Origin: Halarchaeum rubridurum
Lineage (GTDB): Archaea; Halobacteriota; Halobacteria; Halobacteriales; Halobacteriaceae
DNA: 64,000 nucleotides
Assembly (NCBI RefSeq): GCF_014647115.1
Contig: NZ_BMOO01000007.1
Location: 1-64,000 of the forward strand
Reading direction: 5' to 3'
The notes beneath the pieces were generated by a model. That model saw only the letters and a program-made list of their open reading frames with translations. It ran no database searches and was not told the DNA's origin. Within the stretch, counting starts at the first letter, position 1. Every line of letters begins with the position of its first letter. The translations under genes were made by a program, and so were the position numbers. Shown here one piece after another: positions 25,484 through 51,621 of this stretch.

Positions 25484-25619
25484 GCCCCGCCGTTGGCGAC
25501 GCGCGCGTATCGGCCTTTCCGTCGGCGCGCGACGCCCGAGGCGGAACGGGACGGGACGCGGCGCGGGCCCGTCGTGCCGTGTGATGGCATACTAAACAAG
25601 TGTTGCAGAGTCGAAAGCG

Positions 25620-25626
25620 CTTAATA
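25620..25626 (+). promoter_or_regulatory. TATA box for the argG leader
   Basis: CTTAATA at 25620-25626 lies 28 bases before an ATG at 25654, the standard spacing for a leaderless haloarchaeal transcript. If used, it would make an argG mRNA with a leader of about 180 bases. A second TATA-like CCTTTAG at 25731-25737 could drive a shorter transcript. Confidence 0.45.
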
Positions 25627-25653
25627 TCGCCACCGGACAAGTGGCGCACAACG

Positions 25654-25737
25654 ATGTCGCGGCTCACCGCTCCCACGCACGTCTTCTCCGGGAGCGGCGC
25701 GGCCGGCCGACGGCGACGACGACCGGGGTCCCTTTAG
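25654..25737 (+). CDS. Candidate Arg-rich leader peptide of the argG operon
   Basis: A 27-codon ORF, MSRLTAPTHVFSGSGAAG followed by five consecutive Arg codons (CGA CGG CGA CGA CGA at codons 19-23), then PGSL and TAG. It begins 28 bases after a TATA box and its stop lies inside a GGGGTC-CCTTTA-GACCCC hairpin (25725-25742). Arg-codon runs before a hairpin upstream of an arginine operon suggest attenuation by charged tRNA-Arg. GC-rich DNA often gives Arg-rich chance frames, so this stays a hypothesis. Confidence 0.3.
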   Translation: MSRLTAPTHVFSGSGAAGRRRRRPGSL

Positions 25738-25742
25738 ACCCC
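25725..25742 (+). promoter_or_regulatory. Hairpin overlapping the leader-ORF stop upstream of argG
   Basis: GGGGTC (25725-25730), loop CCTTTA, GACCCC (25737-25742): a perfect 6-bp GC-rich stem that includes the stop codon of the Arg-rich ORF. It could act in attenuation with that ORF, or the loop could simply be a TATA element (CCTTTAG) for argG. Confidence 0.4.
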
Positions 25743-25830
25743 ACCATACCCACTCCCACGGCGTTCGAGGTTCGACCCGCGAACCCCCGCGTATCGTCCA
25801 CAACTACTCACCAACCACACCACACTACAC

Positions 25831-27042
25831 ATGTCCGACACCGAAACCGTCGCGCTCGCCTTCTCGGGCGGGCTCGACACGACCGTCTGCGTCCCGCTGC
25901 TGAAAGAGGAGTACGGCTACGACGACGTCATCGGCGTCACCGTCGACGTCGGTCAGCCCGAGGAGGAGTTCGAGGAGGCCTACGAGACCGCCGAGGCGCT
26001 CGGCCTCGAACACTACGTCGTCGACGCGCGTGATGAGTTCGCCGAGGTCTGCATGGACGCGGTCGGCGCGAACGCCGACTACGAGGGGTACCCGCTGGGC
26101 ACCGCGCTCGCGCGCCCCGTCATCGCCAACGCCATCCTCGACGTCGCCGAGGAGCACGGCTGTACGGGCCTCGCGCACGGCTGTACGGGGAAGGGGAACG
26201 ACCAGCTCCGCTTCGAGGCCGTCTGGCGCGGTACCGACATGGAGGTCATCGCGCCCGTCCGCGAGATGGGGCTCACCCGCGAGTGGGAGATCGAGTACGC
26301 CGACGAGAAGGACCTGCCCGTGGAGGCGGGCGATGGCGGCACCTGGAGCATCGACACGAACCTCTGGAGTCGCTCCATCGAGGGCGGCGAGCTGGAGGAC
26401 CCCGGCTACGTCCCGCCGGAGGACATCTACGAGTGGACGAGCCAGCCGAGCGACGAAACCGAGCTCGTCGAAATCGAGTTCGAGAGCGGCGTGCCGGTCG
26501 CCGTGGACGGCGAGGCGATGGAGCCCGTCGCGCTCATCGAGCACCTGAACGAGTTCGCGGGCTCCTACGGCGTCGGTCGCTCCGACCTGATGGAGGACCG
26601 CATCCTCGGGCTCAAAGTCCGTGAGAACTACGAGCACCCGGCGGCGACGACGCTGCTCGCGGCCCACGAGGCCCTCGAAGGGCTCGTCCTGACGAAAGAC
26701 GAGCGCGACTTCAAGGAGACGGTCGACGCGGAGTGGTCCCAGCAGGCCTACGAGGGGCTCCTCGACGCGCCGCTGATGGACTCGCTCGACGCGTTCTTGA
26801 TGCAGTCGAACGAGAAGGTCACCGGCACGGTCACCATCAAGTTCGAGGGCGGGCAGGCCCGCCCGGTCGCCCGCGAGAGCGAGTACGCGGTCTACTCGGA
26901 GGACGCGGCCTCGTTCAACACGGAGACCGTGATGGGCATCGAGCAGGCGGACGCGACGGGCGTGGCGAAGTACCACGGCTTCCAGGCGCGTCTCGCGCGC
27001 GACGCCGAGAAGAAGGCGAAGCCCGACCTGGAGGACGAGTAA
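25831..27042 (+). CDS. argG: Argininosuccinate synthase
   Basis: Joins citrulline and aspartate with ATP to argininosuccinate (403 aa), the penultimate step of arginine synthesis. LAFSGGLDTTVCVPLLKEEYGY holds the PP-loop ATP site (SGGLDT), and AHGCTGKGNDQLRFE and WSIDTNLWSRSIEGGELEDP are family signatures. First gene of the arginine cluster; argH starts two bases past its stop. The ATG follows a G-poor leader without a Shine-Dalgarno sequence. Confidence 0.98.
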   Translation: MSDTETVALAFSGGLDTTVCVPLLKEEYGYDDVIGVTVDVGQPEEEFEEAYETAEALGLEHYVVDARDEFAEVCMDAVGANADYEGYPLGTALARPVIANAILDVAEEHGCTGLAHGCTGKGNDQLRFEAVWRGTDMEVIAPVREMGLTREWEIEYADEKDLPVEAGDGGTWSIDTNLWSRSIEGGELEDPGYVPPEDIYEWTSQPSDETELVEIEFESGVPVAVDGEAMEPVALIEHLNEFAGSYGVGRSDLMEDRILGLKVRENYEHPAATTLLAAHEALEGLVLTKDERDFKETVDAEWSQQAYEGLLDAPLMDSLDAFLMQSNEKVTGTVTIKFEGGQARPVARESEYAVYSEDAASFNTETVMGIEQADATGVAKYHGFQARLARDAEKKAKPDLEDE

Positions 27043-27044
27043 CG

Positions 27045-28508
27045 ATGACCGACGGCGAGGACGAGAGCGGGGGCGAAACGGCGGTGCGCCGCGAGCGCTT
27101 CGCGGGCGGGCCCGCCCGGGAGTTCCTCTCCTCGATGGCGTTCGACGACCGGTTGTTCGCCGCCGACCTCGCCGTCGACCGCGCGCACGTCGTGATGCTC
27201 GCCGAGCGGGAAATCGTCGACGACGACGACGCGGGCGCGATCCTCGAAGCGCTGGACGACGTCGCGGACGCGGGCTTCGAAGCGCTCCCGGACGGCGAGG
27301 ACGTCCACGAGGCCATCGAGACCGCGGTCATCGACCGCGTCGGCCCCGAGGGCGGTCGGATGCACACGGCGCGTTCGCGCAACGACGAGGTGGCGACCTG
27401 CCTGCGCTACGAGTACCGCGAGACGCTCCTCGACGCGCTCGAAACGACGGTCGCGGCCCGCGAGGCGCTCTGCGAGGTCGCGGAGGCCGAGCGCGAGACG
27501 GTGATGCCGGGGTACACGCACCTCCAGCCGGCCCAGCCGACGACGGTCGCGCACTGGGCGCTCTCCTACGAGGCGGCGCTCGCGCGCGACACCGAGCGCC
27601 TGCTGGCGGCGTACGCGCGGACGAACCGCTCGCCGCTCGGCGCGGCGGCGTTCGCGGGGACGCCCTTCGAGGTCGACCGGGAGCGCGTCGCGGAGCTGCT
27701 CGGCTTCGAGTCGGTGCTCGACAACTCGATGGACGCCGTCTCGACGCGGGACTTCCTCGTCGAGGGCACCGCGGCGTTCGCGGGGCTGGCGACGACGCTC
27801 TCGGGACTCGCGGAGGACCTCGTCGTCTACGCGAACAAGGGTCTCGTCGAGCTCGACGACGACTACGCCTCGACGTCGAGCATCATGCCCCAGAAGAAGA
27901 ACCCGGACACGCTCGAACTCGTCCGCTCGACGGCGGGCGACGCCTACGGGGGCCTCCAAGGTCTACTAACGACGCTGAAGGGGCTACCAAGAGCCTACAA
28001 CCGCGACCTGCAGAACGCCTCGCCGCACGCGTGGCGCGTCGCGGACGACGTGGTGGAGGCGACGGACGTCGCGGCGGGCGCGGTGGCGACCGCGACGTGG
28101 CCGGCCGACGAGCTCGAAGCGGCGGCCGGCGAGGGGTTCTCGACGGCGACGGGCGTCGCGGACCTGCTGGCGATGTGCGGACTGCCGTTCCGGACGGCGC
28201 ACGAGGTCGTGGCCGAGGCCGCCGAGCGCGGCGCGGACTACGACGCGCTGAACGCGGCCTGCGAGGACGTCCTCGGCGAGGGAATCGATACGTACGCCGA
28301 CCGGGAGACCGTGGAGGCGACGCTCGACCCGACGGCGAGCGTGGCGTCGCGCGACTCGGCGGGCGGTCCGGCCCCCAAGGCGGTCGCGGAGACGCTCGCG
28401 GCGGCGCTCGACGGCTGTGCGACGGACACGGACCGCGTGGGCGGGCTCGCGGCCGACCTGGAGGCCGCGCGGGACGCGCTCGCGGCGGAGGTCACGACGT
28501 ATGCGTGA
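27045..28508 (+). CDS. argH: Argininosuccinate lyase
   Basis: Splits argininosuccinate to arginine and fumarate (487 aa). Fumarase/aspartase superfamily motifs: MHTARSRNDEVATCLR, MPGYTHLQPAQPTTVAHWAL, and the mobile signature loop STSSIMPQKKNPDTLELVR. Start ATG at 27045 gives an acidic N-terminus before FAGGPAREFLSSMAFD. It is followed by a short possible ORF that overlaps its stop (GTGA) and then by lysW, which has its own TATA box. Confidence 0.97.
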   Translation: MTDGEDESGGETAVRRERFAGGPAREFLSSMAFDDRLFAADLAVDRAHVVMLAEREIVDDDDAGAILEALDDVADAGFEALPDGEDVHEAIETAVIDRVGPEGGRMHTARSRNDEVATCLRYEYRETLLDALETTVAAREALCEVAEAERETVMPGYTHLQPAQPTTVAHWALSYEAALARDTERLLAAYARTNRSPLGAAAFAGTPFEVDRERVAELLGFESVLDNSMDAVSTRDFLVEGTAAFAGLATTLSGLAEDLVVYANKGLVELDDDYASTSSIMPQKKNPDTLELVRSTAGDAYGGLQGLLTTLKGLPRAYNRDLQNASPHAWRVADDVVEATDVAAGAVATATWPADELEAAAGEGFSTATGVADLLAMCGLPFRTAHEVVAEAAERGADYDALNAACEDVLGEGIDTYADRETVEATLDPTASVASRDSAGGPAPKAVAETLAAALDGCATDTDRVGGLAADLEAARDALAAEVTTYA

Positions 28509-28690
28509 GCGACGCGAGCGACGCGTGCGACGAGAACGACGGGAGGGGCCGACGCGACGGCGGGCGTCGGTCCCGATCACACCGCCCCGACGGGGGCGAC
28601 GACGAACCATACGCCAACTGGGACGTCCCGGTCCCGTTTCGACTCGACGGCGCTTCTCGCGCCGATAGAGTCGGGTCCGCGTTACTGTAA
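28505..28690 (+). CDS. Hypothetical short ORF between argH and lysW
   Basis: A 61-codon frame starting at a GTG that overlaps the argH stop in the same GTGA fashion seen elsewhere here. The first half is low-complexity Asp/Arg/Gly; the second half reads DDEPYANWDVPVPFRLDGASRADRV. I do not recognise it. A frame starting ATG at 28501 is purely Arg-rich and less likely. It may be only a spacer: the lysW promoter lies just after it. Confidence 0.3.
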   Translation: MSDASDACDENDGRGRRDGGRRSRSHRPDGGDDEPYANWDVPVPFRLDGASRADRVGSALL

Positions 28691-28744: not shown

Positions 28745-28909
28745 ATGACCGAATGCATCCAGTGCGGTGCGGACCTCGACCTGCACGACGACCTGGAAGT
28801 CGGCGAGATCGTCGATTGTGGCACGTGTGGCGCGGAGCTCGAAGTGACGGACGACGACCCGGTGACGCTCGAGGAGGCGCCCGAGCTCGCCGAGGACTGG
28901 GGGGAATAA
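28745..28909 (+). CDS. lysW: Amino-group carrier protein LysW
   Basis: A 54-aa acidic carrier protein. It has the N-terminal zinc finger CIQCGADLDLHDDLEVGEIVDCGTCG and ends in EDWGE, the conserved LysW tail whose terminal Glu side chain receives the amino group of glutamate (or aminoadipate). In haloarchaea this carrier protects glutamate during ornithine synthesis in place of N-acetylation. It precedes the ligase gene lysX. It is short, but the zinc knuckles and terminal motif make it secure. Confidence 0.95.
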   Translation: MTECIQCGADLDLHDDLEVGEIVDCGTCGAELEVTDDDPVTLEEAPELAEDWGE

Positions 28910-28942
28910 GGGAATGACGACGACGCACACGGGGTGGTTCGC

Positions 28943-29818
28943 GTGAAGGTCGGCCTCCTCTACTCGCGCATCCGGAAGGACGAGAAGCTCCTCCTCGGCG
29001 AGCTCCGCGAGCGGGGCCACGACGTCGAGAAGGTCGACGTCCGCAAACAACAGTTCCGCGTGGGGACCCCGCCGGAGGCGCTCGCCGCGTGTGACGTCGT
29101 CCTCGATCGGTGTCTGGCGACCTCGCGGAGCAAGTACGCGACGACGTTCTGCGAGTCCTACGGCGTCCCCGTGGTGAACGACCCTTCGACCGCGGACGTC
29201 TGCGCCGACAAGGCGAAGACGAGCGTGAAACTCGACGCGGCGGGCGTGCCGACGCCCGCGACGACCGTCGCCTTCGACGTCGACTCCGCCATGGACGCCA
29301 TCGAGGAGTTCGGCTACCCCTGCGTCATCAAGCCCGTCGTGGGCTCGTGGGGGCGGTTGCTGGCGAAGATCGAGTCGGAGAGCGCCGCCGAGGCCGTCCT
29401 CGAACACAAGAAGACGCTCGGACACTACGAGCACTCCGTCTTCTACGTCCAGGAGTTCGTGGAGAAGCCGGGGCGGGACCTGCGCGTCCTCACGCTCGAC
29501 GGCGAACCCGTCGCGGCGATGGCGCGCTCCTCCGAACACTGGCTGACGAACGCCGCTAAGGGCGCCGAGGTCACCGAGTACGACATCCCCGAGGCGGTCG
29601 CGGAACTCGCCCGCGAGGCGAGCGACGCGGTCGGCGGCGGCCTGTTGGGCGTCGACGTCATGGAGACCGGGGACGGCTACACCGTTCCCGAGGTCAACCA
29701 CACGGTGGAGTTCAAGGCGCTGAACGACGCCGTCGAGACGGACGTCCCCGCGACGGTCGTCGACTGGTTGGAGACGAAAGCTGAGACCGAGAGCGCGGAC
29801 GCGGAGGTGTCGGCGTGA
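28943..29818 (+). CDS. lysX: Glutamate--LysW ligase (LysX/ArgX)
   Basis: ATP-grasp ligase of 291 aa that attaches the alpha-amino group of glutamate to the C-terminal Glu of LysW. Starts KVGLLYSRIRKDEKLLLGEL as in LysX; CVIKPVVGSWGRLLAKI and EVNHTVEFKAL carry ATP and metal contacts. LysX/ArgX proteins differ in a loop that sets glutamate against aminoadipate; cluster context with argG/H/F argues for arginine. GTG at 28943 fits the family N-terminus; a GTG at 28934 is an alternative. A 10-codon ORF (28914-28946) overlaps this start. Confidence 0.93.
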   Translation: MKVGLLYSRIRKDEKLLLGELRERGHDVEKVDVRKQQFRVGTPPEALAACDVVLDRCLATSRSKYATTFCESYGVPVVNDPSTADVCADKAKTSVKLDAAGVPTPATTVAFDVDSAMDAIEEFGYPCVIKPVVGSWGRLLAKIESESAAEAVLEHKKTLGHYEHSVFYVQEFVEKPGRDLRVLTLDGEPVAAMARSSEHWLTNAAKGAEVTEYDIPEAVAELAREASDAVGGGLLGVDVMETGDGYTVPEVNHTVEFKALNDAVETDVPATVVDWLETKAETESADAEVSA

Positions 29819-30849
29819 CCACCGCGAGCGTCGTCGGCGGCAGCGGGTTCACCGGCGGTGAGCTCCTCCGGCTCCTCGCGGGCCACCCGGAGTTCGAGAT
29901 TTCCCAGACGACGAGCCGCGAGTACGCGAACAAGACCGTCGGCTCCGTCCACCCGAACCTCCGGGGGCTCGACCTGCGTTTCGTCGCGCCCGACGGGCTG
30001 GAGCCCGTCGACGTCCTCTTCGTCTGCACGCCCCACGGCGTGACGATGGAGCACATCGGGGAGTACCGCGACCTCGCGGACACCGTCGTGGACCTCTCGG
30101 CGGACTTCCGCCTGCCCGAGGCGGAGCTCTACGACACGTGGTACGACGGCCACGTCGCGCCGGAACACCTCGCGGACGCGGAGTACGCGCTCCCCGAGCT
30201 GAACCGCGAGAACCTCGCCGGTGCGGACCTCATCGCCTCGGGCGGCTGTAACGCCACCTCGACGATTCTCGGCCTGAAGCCGCTCGTGGACGCCGGCATC
30301 CTCACGCCCGACGACCAGGTCGTCGTGGACGTCAAGGTGGGCTCCTCGGAGGGCGGCGCGGGCGGCGGCGCGGCGTCCAGCCACCCGGAGCGCTCCGGTG
30401 TGGTGCGCCCGTACGCGCCCACGAGCCATCGCCACGAGGCGGAGATCGAGGCCTACCTCGGCCTGCAGGTCTCCTTTACCGTCCACGCGGTCGACATGGT
30501 GCGCGGGTCGGCAGCGACCTGCCACGTCTACCCGGAGGAGATGCCGGAGACGAAGGACCTCTGGGGGGCGTATCGAGAGACGTACGACGAGGAGCCGTTC
30601 GTCCGCCTCGTCGCTGGCGGTTCGGGGGTGTATCGCTACCCCGAACCGAAGGCCGTCGCGGGGTCGAACTACGCGGAGGTCGGCTTCGAGCGCGACGCGC
30701 GCAACGACCGTATCGTCGCGTTCAGCGCCATCGACAACATGATGAAGGGGTCGGCCGGGCAGGCGGTCCACGCGGCGAACGTCGCGCTCGGCCTCACGGA
30801 AACGGCGGGGCTCGACTTCTCGGGCCTCCACCCAGTGGGGAGTCCGTAG
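29815..30849 (+). CDS. argC: LysW-gamma-glutamyl phosphate reductase
   Basis: NADPH-dependent reductase of 344 aa of the ArgC/LysY family that makes the semialdehyde from the carrier-bound acyl phosphate. VVGGSGFTGGELLRLLAGHPEFEI is the dinucleotide site; ASGGCNATSTILGLKPL contains the catalytic cysteine; HRHEAEIEAYL and FSAIDNMMKGSAGQAVHAANV are family motifs. GTG start overlaps the lysX stop. Its substrate needs a kinase (ArgB/LysZ), normally encoded next, but argD begins directly at the base after this stop. Confidence 0.95.
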   Translation: MTTASVVGGSGFTGGELLRLLAGHPEFEISQTTSREYANKTVGSVHPNLRGLDLRFVAPDGLEPVDVLFVCTPHGVTMEHIGEYRDLADTVVDLSADFRLPEAELYDTWYDGHVAPEHLADAEYALPELNRENLAGADLIASGGCNATSTILGLKPLVDAGILTPDDQVVVDVKVGSSEGGAGGGAASSHPERSGVVRPYAPTSHRHEAEIEAYLGLQVSFTVHAVDMVRGSAATCHVYPEEMPETKDLWGAYRETYDEEPFVRLVAGGSGVYRYPEPKAVAGSNYAEVGFERDARNDRIVAFSAIDNMMKGSAGQAVHAANVALGLTETAGLDFSGLHPVGSP

Positions 30850-31986
30850 ATGTCGGGCGCGGAGTTCGTCTTCGGCTCGAAGCCCATCGACATCGCGTCG
30901 GGCGACGGCGTGACGCTCACGGACGACGAGGGCAACGAGTACCTCGACTTCGGGGCCTCCTACGCCTGCGCGCCGCTCGGCCACTGCCACCCGGACGTCA
31001 CGGACGCGGTCGCCGAGCAGGCGGCCGAACTGACGTACGTCCAGGGGTCGTACCCCGTGGACGTGCGGACGGGGCTCTACGACCGGCTGGCGGCGCTCGC
31101 GCCCGGCGACTGCGAGAAGGTGTGGCTCTCGAACTCCGGGACGGAGGCGAACGAGGCCGCGCTGAAGTTCGCGCGCCACGCGACGGGTCGCTCGAAGCTC
31201 GTCGCCACGATGCAGGCCTTCCACGGCCGGACGATGGGCGCGCTCGCGTGCACGTGGAAGGACGAGTACAAGGAGGGCTTCGGCCCGCTCGCCGGCGACG
31301 TCGAGTTCGTCCCCTACGGCGACGAGGAGGCGATGAGCGAGGCCGTCGACGACGAGACGGCCGGCGTCATCGTCGAGCCGATACAGGGCGAGGGCGGCGT
31401 CAACCCCGCACCGGAGGGCTACCTCCAGCACGTCCGGGACGTCACCGCGGACGCGGGCGCGGCGATGATAGCGGACGAGATTCAGACGGGCGTCGGGCGC
31501 ACCGGCGACCTCTGGGCGGTCGAGGGCGCGGGCGTCGCGCCCGACATCGTCACGGCCGCGAAGGGCATCGCCAACGGCCTGCCGATGGGCGCGACGATGG
31601 TCAAACCGTGGGTCGCGGCGGACGCCGGGAACCACGGCTCGACGTTCTCGGGCGGGCCGGTGCCCTGCGCGGCGGCGAGCGCCACCCTCGAAACGCTCGT
31701 CGCGGAGGACGTGCCGGGGAACGCCCGCGACGTGGGCGCGTCGTTCCGCGCGGCGCTCGACGACCTCGCCGCGGAGACGGGCGCGATCCGCGACGTCCGC
31801 GGCCGCGGCCTGATGGTCGGCGTCGAGGTGAAGACGGGCGCGAACCCCGTCATCGGCCAGTTGGCGATGAGCCACGGCGTCCTCGCGCTTCCCGCGGGGC
31901 GGACCGTCGTGCGCTTCCTCCCGCCGCTGACGGTGACGGAGGAGCACACAGAACGGGTCGTCGAGGGCCTGCGCGACGTCCTATGA
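30850..31986 (+). CDS. argD: LysW-gamma-glutamyl semialdehyde (acetylornithine-type) aminotransferase
   Basis: Class III PLP aminotransferase of 378 aa producing carrier-bound ornithine. LDFGASYACAPLGHCHPDV, LSNSGTEANEAALKFARHAT, MQAFHGRTMGALACTW, MIADEIQTGVGRTG and the lysine motif VTAAKGIANGLPMG are all present, typical of ArgD/LysJ. It starts at the base after the argC stop and overlaps argE by ATGA. The gap where argB normally lies is absent. Confidence 0.95.
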   Translation: MSGAEFVFGSKPIDIASGDGVTLTDDEGNEYLDFGASYACAPLGHCHPDVTDAVAEQAAELTYVQGSYPVDVRTGLYDRLAALAPGDCEKVWLSNSGTEANEAALKFARHATGRSKLVATMQAFHGRTMGALACTWKDEYKEGFGPLAGDVEFVPYGDEEAMSEAVDDETAGVIVEPIQGEGGVNPAPEGYLQHVRDVTADAGAAMIADEIQTGVGRTGDLWAVEGAGVAPDIVTAAKGIANGLPMGATMVKPWVAADAGNHGSTFSGGPVPCAAASATLETLVAEDVPGNARDVGASFRAALDDLAAETGAIRDVRGRGLMVGVEVKTGANPVIGQLAMSHGVLALPAGRTVVRFLPPLTVTEEHTERVVEGLRDVL

Positions 31987-33041
31987 GCGCGACGGCACGC
32001 CCGCAGGACGAGGCGCGCGACCTGCTCTCCGACCTCGTGGCGACGCCCTCCGTCTCGGGCGACGAGGACGCGGTCGCCGAGCGCCTCGTGGAGTTCTTCG
32101 AATCGCACGGCCGCGAGGCGTACCGCGACGACGTCGGGAACGTCCGCGCGCCGGGCGACGACGGCGTCCTCCTCACGAGCCACATGGACACCGTCCCCGG
32201 CGACATCGAGGTGCGCGAGGCGGACGGCGAACTCTGGGGTCGCGGGGCCTGCGACGCGAAGGGACCCCTCGCCTCGATGGCGGTCGCGGCCGCGGCGACG
32301 GGCGCGAGCTACGTCGGCGTCGTCGGCGAGGAGACGACCTCGCTCGGCGCGCGCCACCTCGTGGAGACCCGCGAGGCGCCCGACGCCGTCATCAACGGCG
32401 AGCCCTCCGGCTGGGACGCCGTGACGCTCGGCTATCGCGGGTTCGTGAAGGGCGCGTTCGCGGCGGAGACGCCCTCGGCGCACACCTCGCGGCCGGGGCC
32501 GAACGCCCTCGAATACGCGATGGACTGGTGGCACGACGTTGAATCGGCCTTCGAGACGGAGGGCGAGTCGGCGGTGTTCGAGCAGGTGACGACGAAGCCC
32601 GTCGGGATGGACGGGGGCGTCACCGACGACGGCCTCGCGTTCGAGTCGGCCGTCGACGCGCAGTTCCGCGTGCCGCCGTCGTGGACCATCGACGAGGTCG
32701 CGGAGACGGCGGAGGGGTGTCTCCCGACGTACGTCGGCGAGGAGGCGTCGGTGGGCGTGGAGTGGACGGACTCCATCCCGCCCGTGATGGCGTCGCCGCG
32801 GAACGCGGTGGCGGCGGCGCTGCGCGCGGGCGTCCGCGCGGAGGGCGGCGAGACGACGCACCTCCGCAAGACCGGCACGAGCGACATGAACATCTACCAC
32901 GGGGCGTGGGACTGCCCGATGGCGACCTACGGGCCGGGCGACTCGTCGCTCGACCACGCGCCCGACGAGCGCATCGACCTCGACGAGTACGACCGCGGCG
33001 TCGCCGTCCTGACGGCGGCCGCGGAGCGGCTGACAGCATGA
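31983..33041 (+). CDS. argE: LysW-ornithine hydrolase (ArgE/LysK)
   Basis: M20-family metallopeptidase of 352 aa that releases ornithine from LysW. Metal ligands are visible in LLTSHMDTVPGDIEV and WGRGACDAKGPLASM, with GVVGEETTSLGARHL (catalytic Glu) and NGEPSGWDAVTLGYRG; KTGTSDMNIYH near the C-terminus is typical of LysK. ATG at 31983 overlaps the argD stop, and argF overlaps its own stop, so argD-argE-argF are coupled. Confidence 0.95.
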   Translation: MSATARPQDEARDLLSDLVATPSVSGDEDAVAERLVEFFESHGREAYRDDVGNVRAPGDDGVLLTSHMDTVPGDIEVREADGELWGRGACDAKGPLASMAVAAAATGASYVGVVGEETTSLGARHLVETREAPDAVINGEPSGWDAVTLGYRGFVKGAFAAETPSAHTSRPGPNALEYAMDWWHDVESAFETEGESAVFEQVTTKPVGMDGGVTDDGLAFESAVDAQFRVPPSWTIDEVAETAEGCLPTYVGEEASVGVEWTDSIPPVMASPRNAVAAALRAGVRAEGGETTHLRKTGTSDMNIYHGAWDCPMATYGPGDSSLDHAPDERIDLDEYDRGVAVLTAAAERLTA

Positions 33042-33925
33042 ACCTCATCGACATCGACGACTTCGACGTCCCGCAGTTGCATCGCGTCCTCGACACCGCC
33101 GCGGCGCTGAAGGCGGGCGAGGAGGAGCCACCGGCGAGCCTCGACGGGGCGAGTCTGGGGATGCTCTTCGAGCGTCCGAGCACCCGCACCCGGGTGTCCT
33201 TCGAGGTCGGGATGACCGAGCTCGGCGGCCACGCGGTCTTCCTCGGGAAGGACGACATCCAGCTCGGGCGCGGCGAGCCGATCAAGGACACGGCGCGCGC
33301 GCTCTCGGGCTACGTCGACGGCGTGATGGCGCGCGTGAAGACCCACGAGGACATGCTCGAACTCGCGGAGTACGCGGACGTCCCCGTGATCAACGGGCTG
33401 TCGAGCGAGGCCCACCCCGCACAGACGGTGGCGGACCTCCTCACGATCCGCGAGCACTGCGGCTTCGAGGACACGACGGTCGCGTGGGTCGGCGACGGCA
33501 ACAACGTCGGCGCGTCGTTCCTCGTCGGCGCGGCGATGGTCGGCCTCGACGTCCGCGCGGCGACGCCCGAGGGGTACGAGTTCAACCCGGACGCCGTCGA
33601 GCGCGCGAGCGAGTACGACGGCGAGATCACGGTCGGTCACGACCCGGACGCGGCCGTCGCGGACGCGGACATCGTCTACACGGACGTCTGGGTGAGCATG
33701 GGCGAGGAGGAGCGTCGCGAGGAGAAGGTCGCGGACTTCGCGGGGTTCCAGTTGAACGAGGCGCTCCTCTCGAAGACGGACGACGCCGCCGTGATGCACT
33801 GTCTGCCCGCCCATCGGGGCGAGGAGATCACGGACGACGTCATGGAGTCGGATCGCGAACTCATCTGGGCGCAGGCGGAGAACCGCCTCCACGGCCAGAA
33901 GGGCATCCTCGTCGAGATCCTGTAA
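33038..33925 (+). CDS. argF: Ornithine carbamoyltransferase
   Basis: Makes citrulline from ornithine and carbamoyl phosphate (295 aa, cytoplasmic trimer in relatives). FERPSTRTRVSFEVGMTELGG contains the SxRTR phosphate site, HPAQTVADLLTIRE and AWVGDGNNVGASFLVG are the ornithine/phosphate regions, and MHCLPAHRGEEIT is the HCLP catalytic loop. Last gene of the arginine cluster, overlapping argE by ATGA. Confidence 0.97.
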   Translation: MNLIDIDDFDVPQLHRVLDTAAALKAGEEEPPASLDGASLGMLFERPSTRTRVSFEVGMTELGGHAVFLGKDDIQLGRGEPIKDTARALSGYVDGVMARVKTHEDMLELAEYADVPVINGLSSEAHPAQTVADLLTIREHCGFEDTTVAWVGDGNNVGASFLVGAAMVGLDVRAATPEGYEFNPDAVERASEYDGEITVGHDPDAAVADADIVYTDVWVSMGEEERREEKVADFAGFQLNEALLSKTDDAAVMHCLPAHRGEEITDDVMESDRELIWAQAENRLHGQKGILVEIL

Positions 33926-51546: not shown

Positions 51547-51621
51547 CGGGCACGGAGGGATTCGAACCCCCGCGCTTCTGGTTAGAAGCCAGACGCTCTG
51601 TCCGAACTGAGCTACGTGCCC
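51547..51621 (-). tRNA. tRNA-Arg (anticodon TCT)
   Basis: A 75-base cloverleaf without CCA: acceptor GGGCACG/CGTGCCC, D arm GCTC-AGTTCGGACA-GAGC, anticodon stem TCTGG/CCAGA around the loop CTTCTAA (anticodon TCT, reading AGA), and a T arm with GGTTCGAATCC. The discriminator base is G. A CTTTTG element on the minus strand near 51645-51655 may be its promoter. A truncated copy of its 3' end lies downstream. Confidence 0.95.

Follow-up and report, generated by a model that had tools for sequence, protein, structure and literature searches.

The window analyzed here is a 64,000-nucleotide stretch of Halarchaeum rubridurum DNA (contig NZ_BMOO01000007.1, positions 1 to 64,000). On its forward strand lies an arginine operon that begins with argG, encoding argininosuccinate synthase (25831..27042; family match to NF010392 and TIGR00032), and continues with argH, encoding argininosuccinate lyase (27045..28508), argW (28745..28909), whose 54-aa product was assigned to the LysW-type carrier proteins from its position and sequence, argX, encoding a LysX-type ligase (28934..29818), and argC, argD, argE and argF (29815..33925). 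An earlier note on this DNA had placed a possible leader in front of the arginine operon, and all of these genes do follow it. argB is missing between argC and argD (29815-31986); it was located on another contig (C4:172054-172803), where its neighbor looks like a second copy of argX. A very Arg-rich ORF on the forward strand (28417-28668; MRERRERRVRRERREGPTRRR...) overlaps the argH stop and precedes argW, and could be a chance product of GC-rich DNA. The sole tRNA gene of the window, on the reverse strand (51547-51621), encodes a tRNA-Arg with anticodon TCT, which does not decode CGA.

Upstream of argG, direct reading gives an upstream ORF (uORF) of 27 codons plus a TAG stop on the forward strand (MSRLTAPTHVFSGSGAAGRRRRRPGSL*; 25654..25737, with the ATG at 25654-25656 and the TAG at 25735-25737), a frame also seen in relatives. 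It is preceded by the TATA-like sequence TTAATA (25621..25626, +), the putative promoter of the uORF and argG. Codons 19-23 of the frame (25708..25722, +), the putative regulatory codons, are five consecutive Arg codons, CGA CGG CGA CGA CGA, four of them CGA. The earlier note had described the TATA box, the 27-codon frame and the Arg run; the box was found as stated, and the frame and the run proved exact. The uORF probably has a leaderless-type start, with transcription beginning at or within a few bases of its ATG. A dRNA-seq study of Haloferax volcanii gives 72% of transcripts as leaderless (PMC4983044), and a transcription start at or beside the uORF ATG is therefore probable.

Three hairpins were recognized in the region, all on the forward strand. 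Hairpin H1 lies within the uORF (25667..25697) and has a predicted 8-bp stem, formed by CCGCTCCC (25667-25674) and GGGAGCGG (25690-25697), around a 15-nt loop. Hairpin H2 (25725..25742), read directly as GGGGTC-CCTTTA-GACCCC, has its 5' arm at 25725-25730, its loop at 25731-25736 and its 3' arm at 25737-25742, so that the uORF stop codon falls at the junction of the loop and the 3' arm; its predicted fold is −11.6 kcal/mol (z of −2.1 against dinucleotide shuffles). H2 had been noted as a perfect GC hairpin containing the stop codon, and its six pairs are indeed perfect, but "GC" was a loose description, as one of the pairs is T-A. Hairpin H3 (25769..25785), GGTTCG-ACCCG-CGAACC, was identified in the spacer by folding and comparison within the genus; it is kept in Halarchaeum, and Halospeciosus has a similar repeat. 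The 88-nt spacer between H2 and argG (25743..25830, +) is C-rich and G-poor (47% C, 14% G), and direct reading revealed no second TATA box in it. The argG start lies 96 nt past the first base of the uORF stop codon. The leader region gave no Rfam match at gathering score or at E<=1.

We scanned the H. rubridurum genome on both strands, over about 2.05 Mb, with strict criteria: a TATA box, an ATG ORF of 12-60 codons and a stop codon within a GC hairpin of at least 5 bp. Only five hits were obtained, one being the argG leader and another a sequence upstream of ilvB; two of the five thus stand before amino-acid operons and carry codons for the operon's own product, which is not expected by chance. 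The conjunction of promoter, position and hairpin at argG had been singled out beforehand as the notable feature, and its place among so few hits bears this out. A relaxed scan of the genome returned mostly chance hits, and for this reason the strict scan alone was used. The relaxed scan does make clear that chance Arg-rich ORFs are common in this genome, as a chance frame in GC-rich DNA would require. However, CGA is a rare codon that GC content does not favor, the strict architecture arises only five times in about 2 Mb, and the leader is kept in 35 of 35 loci anchored on ArgG (see below). We regard a chance ORF as ruled out by this conservation and by the strict scan, with a negligible residual probability.

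The conservation of the leader was assessed in a first set of 35 haloarchaeal argG loci (L014-L048), gathered by ArgG protein similarity alone; the genus relatives H. nitratireducens and H. acidiphilum have 97% and 94% ArgG identity, respectively. A small ORF, in frame with an Arg run that lies against H2, precedes argG at every one of the 35 loci. An automatic finder recovered 34 of them with an ATG or GTG start, and at the remaining locus, L027, the frame VTHVTTAVDVAVRQPRVAFRPRAI runs from a GTG, H2 is present and the adjacent codons are CGG rather than CGA. The stop codon begins 1-3 nt before the H2 3' arm in 32 of the 35 and lies just beyond that position in L025, L037 and L040. Halobacterium salinarum (L025) has lost 1 nt ahead of H2. 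The resulting frameshift carries the uORF across H2 to a stop codon 9 nt past the beginning of the 3' arm, with the Arg run still in frame with the ATG.

The set was enlarged by motif, covariance-model and further ArgG searches to 109 non-redundant loci. Among these, the uORF is 21-57 codons long, starts with ATG (107 loci) or GTG (2 loci), ends with TAG (90 loci), TGA (17 loci) or TAA (2 loci), and always has the Arg run in frame. A TATA-like box was recognized in 107 of the 109 and begins 29-35 nt before the uORF start codon. The stop codon stands 1-3 nt ahead of the H2 3' arm in 100 loci, with loops of 4-9 nt, and one-base changes in loop length accompany stop-codon swaps (TTAGACCCC vs. TGACCCC), indicating that the stop is held in frame at the same place. 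Comparison of relatives had been proposed as a check on the leader, and frame, Arg run and hairpin are all kept across the core families sampled despite diverged sequence and length. Nothing is conserved among the uORF amino acids except the Arg end. Short leaderless genes exist in haloarchaea (PMC4983044), and the leader could instead encode an independent, trans-acting small protein or small RNA that lies upstream of argG by coincidence; we consider this very improbable, as the element is always upstream of argG, only its Arg end is conserved and its length varies from 21 to 57 codons.

The H2 arms differ widely in sequence (GGGGTC/GACCCC, GGGCC/GGCCC, CGGGCC/GGCCCG, GGCCC/GGGCC, GGGGCT/AGCCCC, GGGCCT/AGGCCC and CGGCC/GGCCG, among others), and in L176 they are inverted (GACCCC/GGGGTC). 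In a model-based alignment of 86 hits, which was fitted to the structure and includes a few hits that are not argG leaders, 96.6% of cells were paired and the covariation score of 0.063 was unreached in 500 shuffles, which ignore relatedness. Slid controls in the same alignment paired less than H2. These observations bear on whether H2, a perfect inverted repeat downstream of the promoter, could be a DNA operator for an arginine repressor with the ORF merely incidental. We rejected this candidate as highly improbable: the arms change, and even invert, with pairing kept, and the loops vary from 4 to 9 nt, unlike the fixed palindrome expected of an operator, and an operator would also leave the frame, the rare codons and the placement of the stop unexplained. 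Close to the start of the uORF, about 55% of loci have a perfect stem of 7 bp or more, corresponding to H1, compared with about 18% after codon shuffling, and its arms differ between families. Possible alternative pairings of the H1 3' arm or the spacer with H2 were noticed by eye in single families, and none of these was general.

The Arg run shows a strong synonymous bias. Of the 447 Arg codons found among the nine final codons of the 109 uORFs, 319 (71%) are CGA. Its share of Arg codons is 1.3% in the argG genes at these loci, 1.7% in eight genes of the window and 8.2% in the genome's long ORFs of high GC3. Because the larger set was collected with a finder that required CGAC close to H2, the counts at positions −4 and −5 are biased; the enrichment extends, however, to −6 and −7, and the ArgG-anchored loci show it too. 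Since the CGA codons lie outside the stem, H2 pairing does not need them. In most of the 109 loci, 7-10 nt separate the start of the H2 5' arm from the stop; in 79 of the 109, the last Arg codon ends 1-2 nt ahead of that arm, so that a ribosome stalled there would cover it. Bacterial attenuators are known to favor the synonymous codon that is most sensitive to limitation (PMC1183508).

The peptide, rather than the codons, could also be the sensor. The fungal arginine attenuator peptide (arg-2/CPA1) is encoded by a uORF before an arginine gene and has a conserved nascent peptide. A comparable Arg-Arg-Pro-Gly end might, at high levels of free arginine, halt the ribosome at the stop codon; the ending R-R-P-G-x-stop is frequent, and arrest at the stop would put the ribosome on H2. 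However, Pro-Gly is not kept, the final position is free to vary (R, L, F, P or A), the choice among PG, RG and RA is dictated by the H2 stem, it is the CGA codon and not only Arg that is conserved, and the ilvB leader described below has the same RNA layout with a different peptide end. Residues −1 to −3 change along with the hairpin, the CGA codons do not, and no conserved peptide was found near the supposed arrest point; we therefore judge a nascent-peptide mechanism improbable. Unlike the fungal peptide, the haloarchaeal leader conserves a codon rather than a peptide.

The same design stands before another amino-acid operon of the organism. Upstream of ilvB, on the minus strand of contig C1 with its ATG at 168298, the H. 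rubridurum genome has a leader reading MRRPTARTDRLSGSVVAAVPTFIVGA-stop, with a stop-codon hairpin of GGGGC/GTAA/GCCCC and a uORF that ends in Ile-Val-Gly-Ala-stop. The ilvB leader was also noted in L273 and L254. Sampling of 24 ilvB loci from across the order showed that most carry a uORF ending in Ile-(Ile)-Val-Gly-Ala/Val or a close variant (Leu-Val or Val-Val), and most a TATA-like box at leaderless spacing. The codons are ATC or ATT followed by GTA, with Leu or Val replacing Ile in a few loci; GTA accounts for 1.5% of the Val codons in the H. rubridurum genome. The codon run directly precedes GGGG(C)...(G)CCCC, with the stop in the loop or at the 3' arm. At pheS, most of the loci sampled have a uORF that ends in a Phe run, typically GFGFFFA-stop (Phe-rich leaders were seen in L370, L371, L373, L376, L380, L386, L387, L391 and L392), and the stop hairpin is inconsistent among them. 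We found no Phe-run leader at pheS in the H. rubridurum genome itself, and no consistent leader at the trpC (IGPS) loci. The pheS leader recalls the bacterial pheM, and it is of the same kind as the 26-aa uORF listed in the long pheS 5'-UTR of H. volcanii (PMC4983044, Table 2). No other observation argues as strongly for amino-acid sensing as this match of codon identity to pathway across separate operons.

The argG leader is present in most of the core haloarchaeal families sampled, including genera that were picked for weak covariance-model scores and read by eye. In two genera (L159 and L160), H2 is decayed or unrecognizable and the Arg-rich frame remains, making them candidates for loss of the mechanism. 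No leader was seen in the argG upstream regions of three deep haloarchaeal families (L177-L179), and the regions examined upstream of ArgG genes from outside the class contained no equivalent. Covariance-model E-values have a high background in GC-rich genomes, and matches above about 1e-6 were distrusted. One weak hit, in the argH-argW gap of genome G104, was considered as a second leader copy from the resemblance of CGACGACCG plus a hairpin, and was rejected; it stands just past the end of argH and is not an argG-type leader.

The spacer between the uORF and argG bears on how a leader might act. It spans 78-217 nt in the 109 loci and is C-rich. No U-tract follows H2 in the window, and the 40 nt past H2 are 28% T across the 109 loci. 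A second TATA-like box is visible near argG in 47 of the 109, suggesting that part of argG expression there would bypass the leader; none is visible in the other 62. In loci with the second promoter (e.g., L021, L030, L037, L040, L136 and L154), argG is preceded by a conserved element like GGTAGCGTGC..GTC, followed by ATTAATTTTC and GAATTTAT, which is perhaps a candidate operator of the second, leaderless argG promoter. The spacers of L024, L028, L036 and L038 contain a candidate pseudoknot, found in some families only, with CCGCC...GGGCGG around a TCGGGT that can pair with an ACCCGA just before argG.

The main rival to transcriptional attenuation is that the same leader controls translation or mRNA stability, acting through re-initiation at argG or through decay with no premature termination. 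This is compatible with the sensing part of the attenuator reading. The absence of a U-tract and the long, C-rich spacer would suit it, as would the 62 loci lacking a visible second promoter, where argG would be translated from the long transcript. Read-through control better fits the 47 loci that have an apparent leaderless argG promoter of their own and yet keep the uORF and H2, and we consider control of translation or stability unlikely, though the most serious of the rivals.

Alongside the observed anatomy (the uORF, its frame, the rare-codon run, and H1 and H2), its conservation and the codon-pathway match at a second operon, the reading that we favor, with a probability of roughly 0.78, is that the argG leader acts in cis as a ribosome-mediated amino-acid attenuator, controlling the arginine operon. 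An arginine-sensing leader peptide had been suggested in the earlier note, and sequence comparison supports the suggestion through the conserved frame, run and hairpin, the rare CGA codons, and the parallels at ilvB and pheS. The leader has several hallmarks of attenuators: a short ORF before the cognate operon (argG-H-W-X-C-D-E-F; 35/35 loci), a run of codons for the end product with a synonymous bias, and conserved hairpins overlapping the ORF (H2 by covariation and H1 by its excess over the control). It lacks a further one, a Rho-independent terminator with a U-tract. Besides this, the second TATA-like boxes near argG, the displaced stop of H. salinarum and the haloarchaeal lineages in which the leader is absent or H2 has decayed count against the attenuator reading.

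In the mechanism that we infer, a ribosome would start translating at the leaderless 5' end, directly behind RNA polymerase, open H1 and arrive at the CGA run. With ample arginine, it would read to the stop codon and leave, allowing H2 to form, and transcription would then end, or the transcript be lost, in the C-rich spacer before argG. When charged Arg-tRNA for CGA is scarce, the ribosome would instead stall with its leading part on the H2 5' arm, blocking the hairpin, and transcription would proceed into argGHWXCDEF. Judged by a ribosome's general footprint, a stall at the end of the Arg run would keep the H2 5' arm inside the mRNA channel. We hold the specific occlusion-and-termination step only tentatively, at somewhat less than even odds. 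In H. volcanii, a hairpin that lacked a T-stretch brought about termination of 59% of transcripts in vivo (PMC7237163), suggesting that H2 could terminate or pause transcription without a U-tract.

Like the bacterial attenuators of the trp, his, leu, ilv, thr and pheST (pheM) operons, the haloarchaeal leaders combine a short ORF, cognate codons that are often rare or sensitive, hairpins that overlap the leader, and a codon identity that tracks the pathway (arg, ilv and phe). Unlike them, the archaeal leader has leaderless promoter spacing, a single hairpin that contains the stop codon, no U-tract terminator and no generally conserved antiterminator pairing that we could see. With no U-tract after H2 and no general alternative pairing noticed by eye, the sequences do not show a classical antiterminator/U-tract-terminator mechanism. 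Another parallel is pyrBI (pyrL) of enteric bacteria, where the leader ribosome is thought to sit on the terminator hairpin with no antiterminator, much as the proposed argG-leader ribosome would block its hairpin by occupying it; pyrL senses UTP through polymerase pausing and not through codons. In Corynebacterium, a conserved uORF precedes ilvB-II and an attenuator controls ilvBNC (PMC10272879, PMC11857589); for this bacterial system a three-hairpin model was given.

In the H. volcanii study, in the parts considered here, argG and ilvB are absent from the uORF list (PMC4983044, Table 2), the uORFs listed all have a low pI, long structured leaders are read as untypical of haloarchaea, and the passages propose no attenuation for the uORFs. 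Our search of the open literature turned up no leader-peptide attenuator at argG or ilvB in archaea, and an earlier description is possible.

In bacteria, the attenuation of amino-acid operons by leader ribosomes is textbook knowledge; the open literature searched here yielded no archaeal report of it. The sequences compared here make it probable that haloarchaea sense amino acids through the ribosome, in a way so far known chiefly in bacteria. Whether the leaders form a general haloarchaeal class is, in our estimate, evenly poised; such a class would consist of a leaderless uORF, rare cognate codons and a single stop-containing hairpin that a stalled ribosome occludes, and would control at least arg and ilv, with the Phe leader of pheS as a relative. 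If the attenuator reading is correct, archaea would sense amino acids by translating leader peptides, which would imply that transcription is tightly coupled to translation where 5' ends are leaderless. The haloarchaeal leaders would then offer a simple, testable one-hairpin variant of attenuation in genetically tractable organisms, and a rule by which further leaders may be found.
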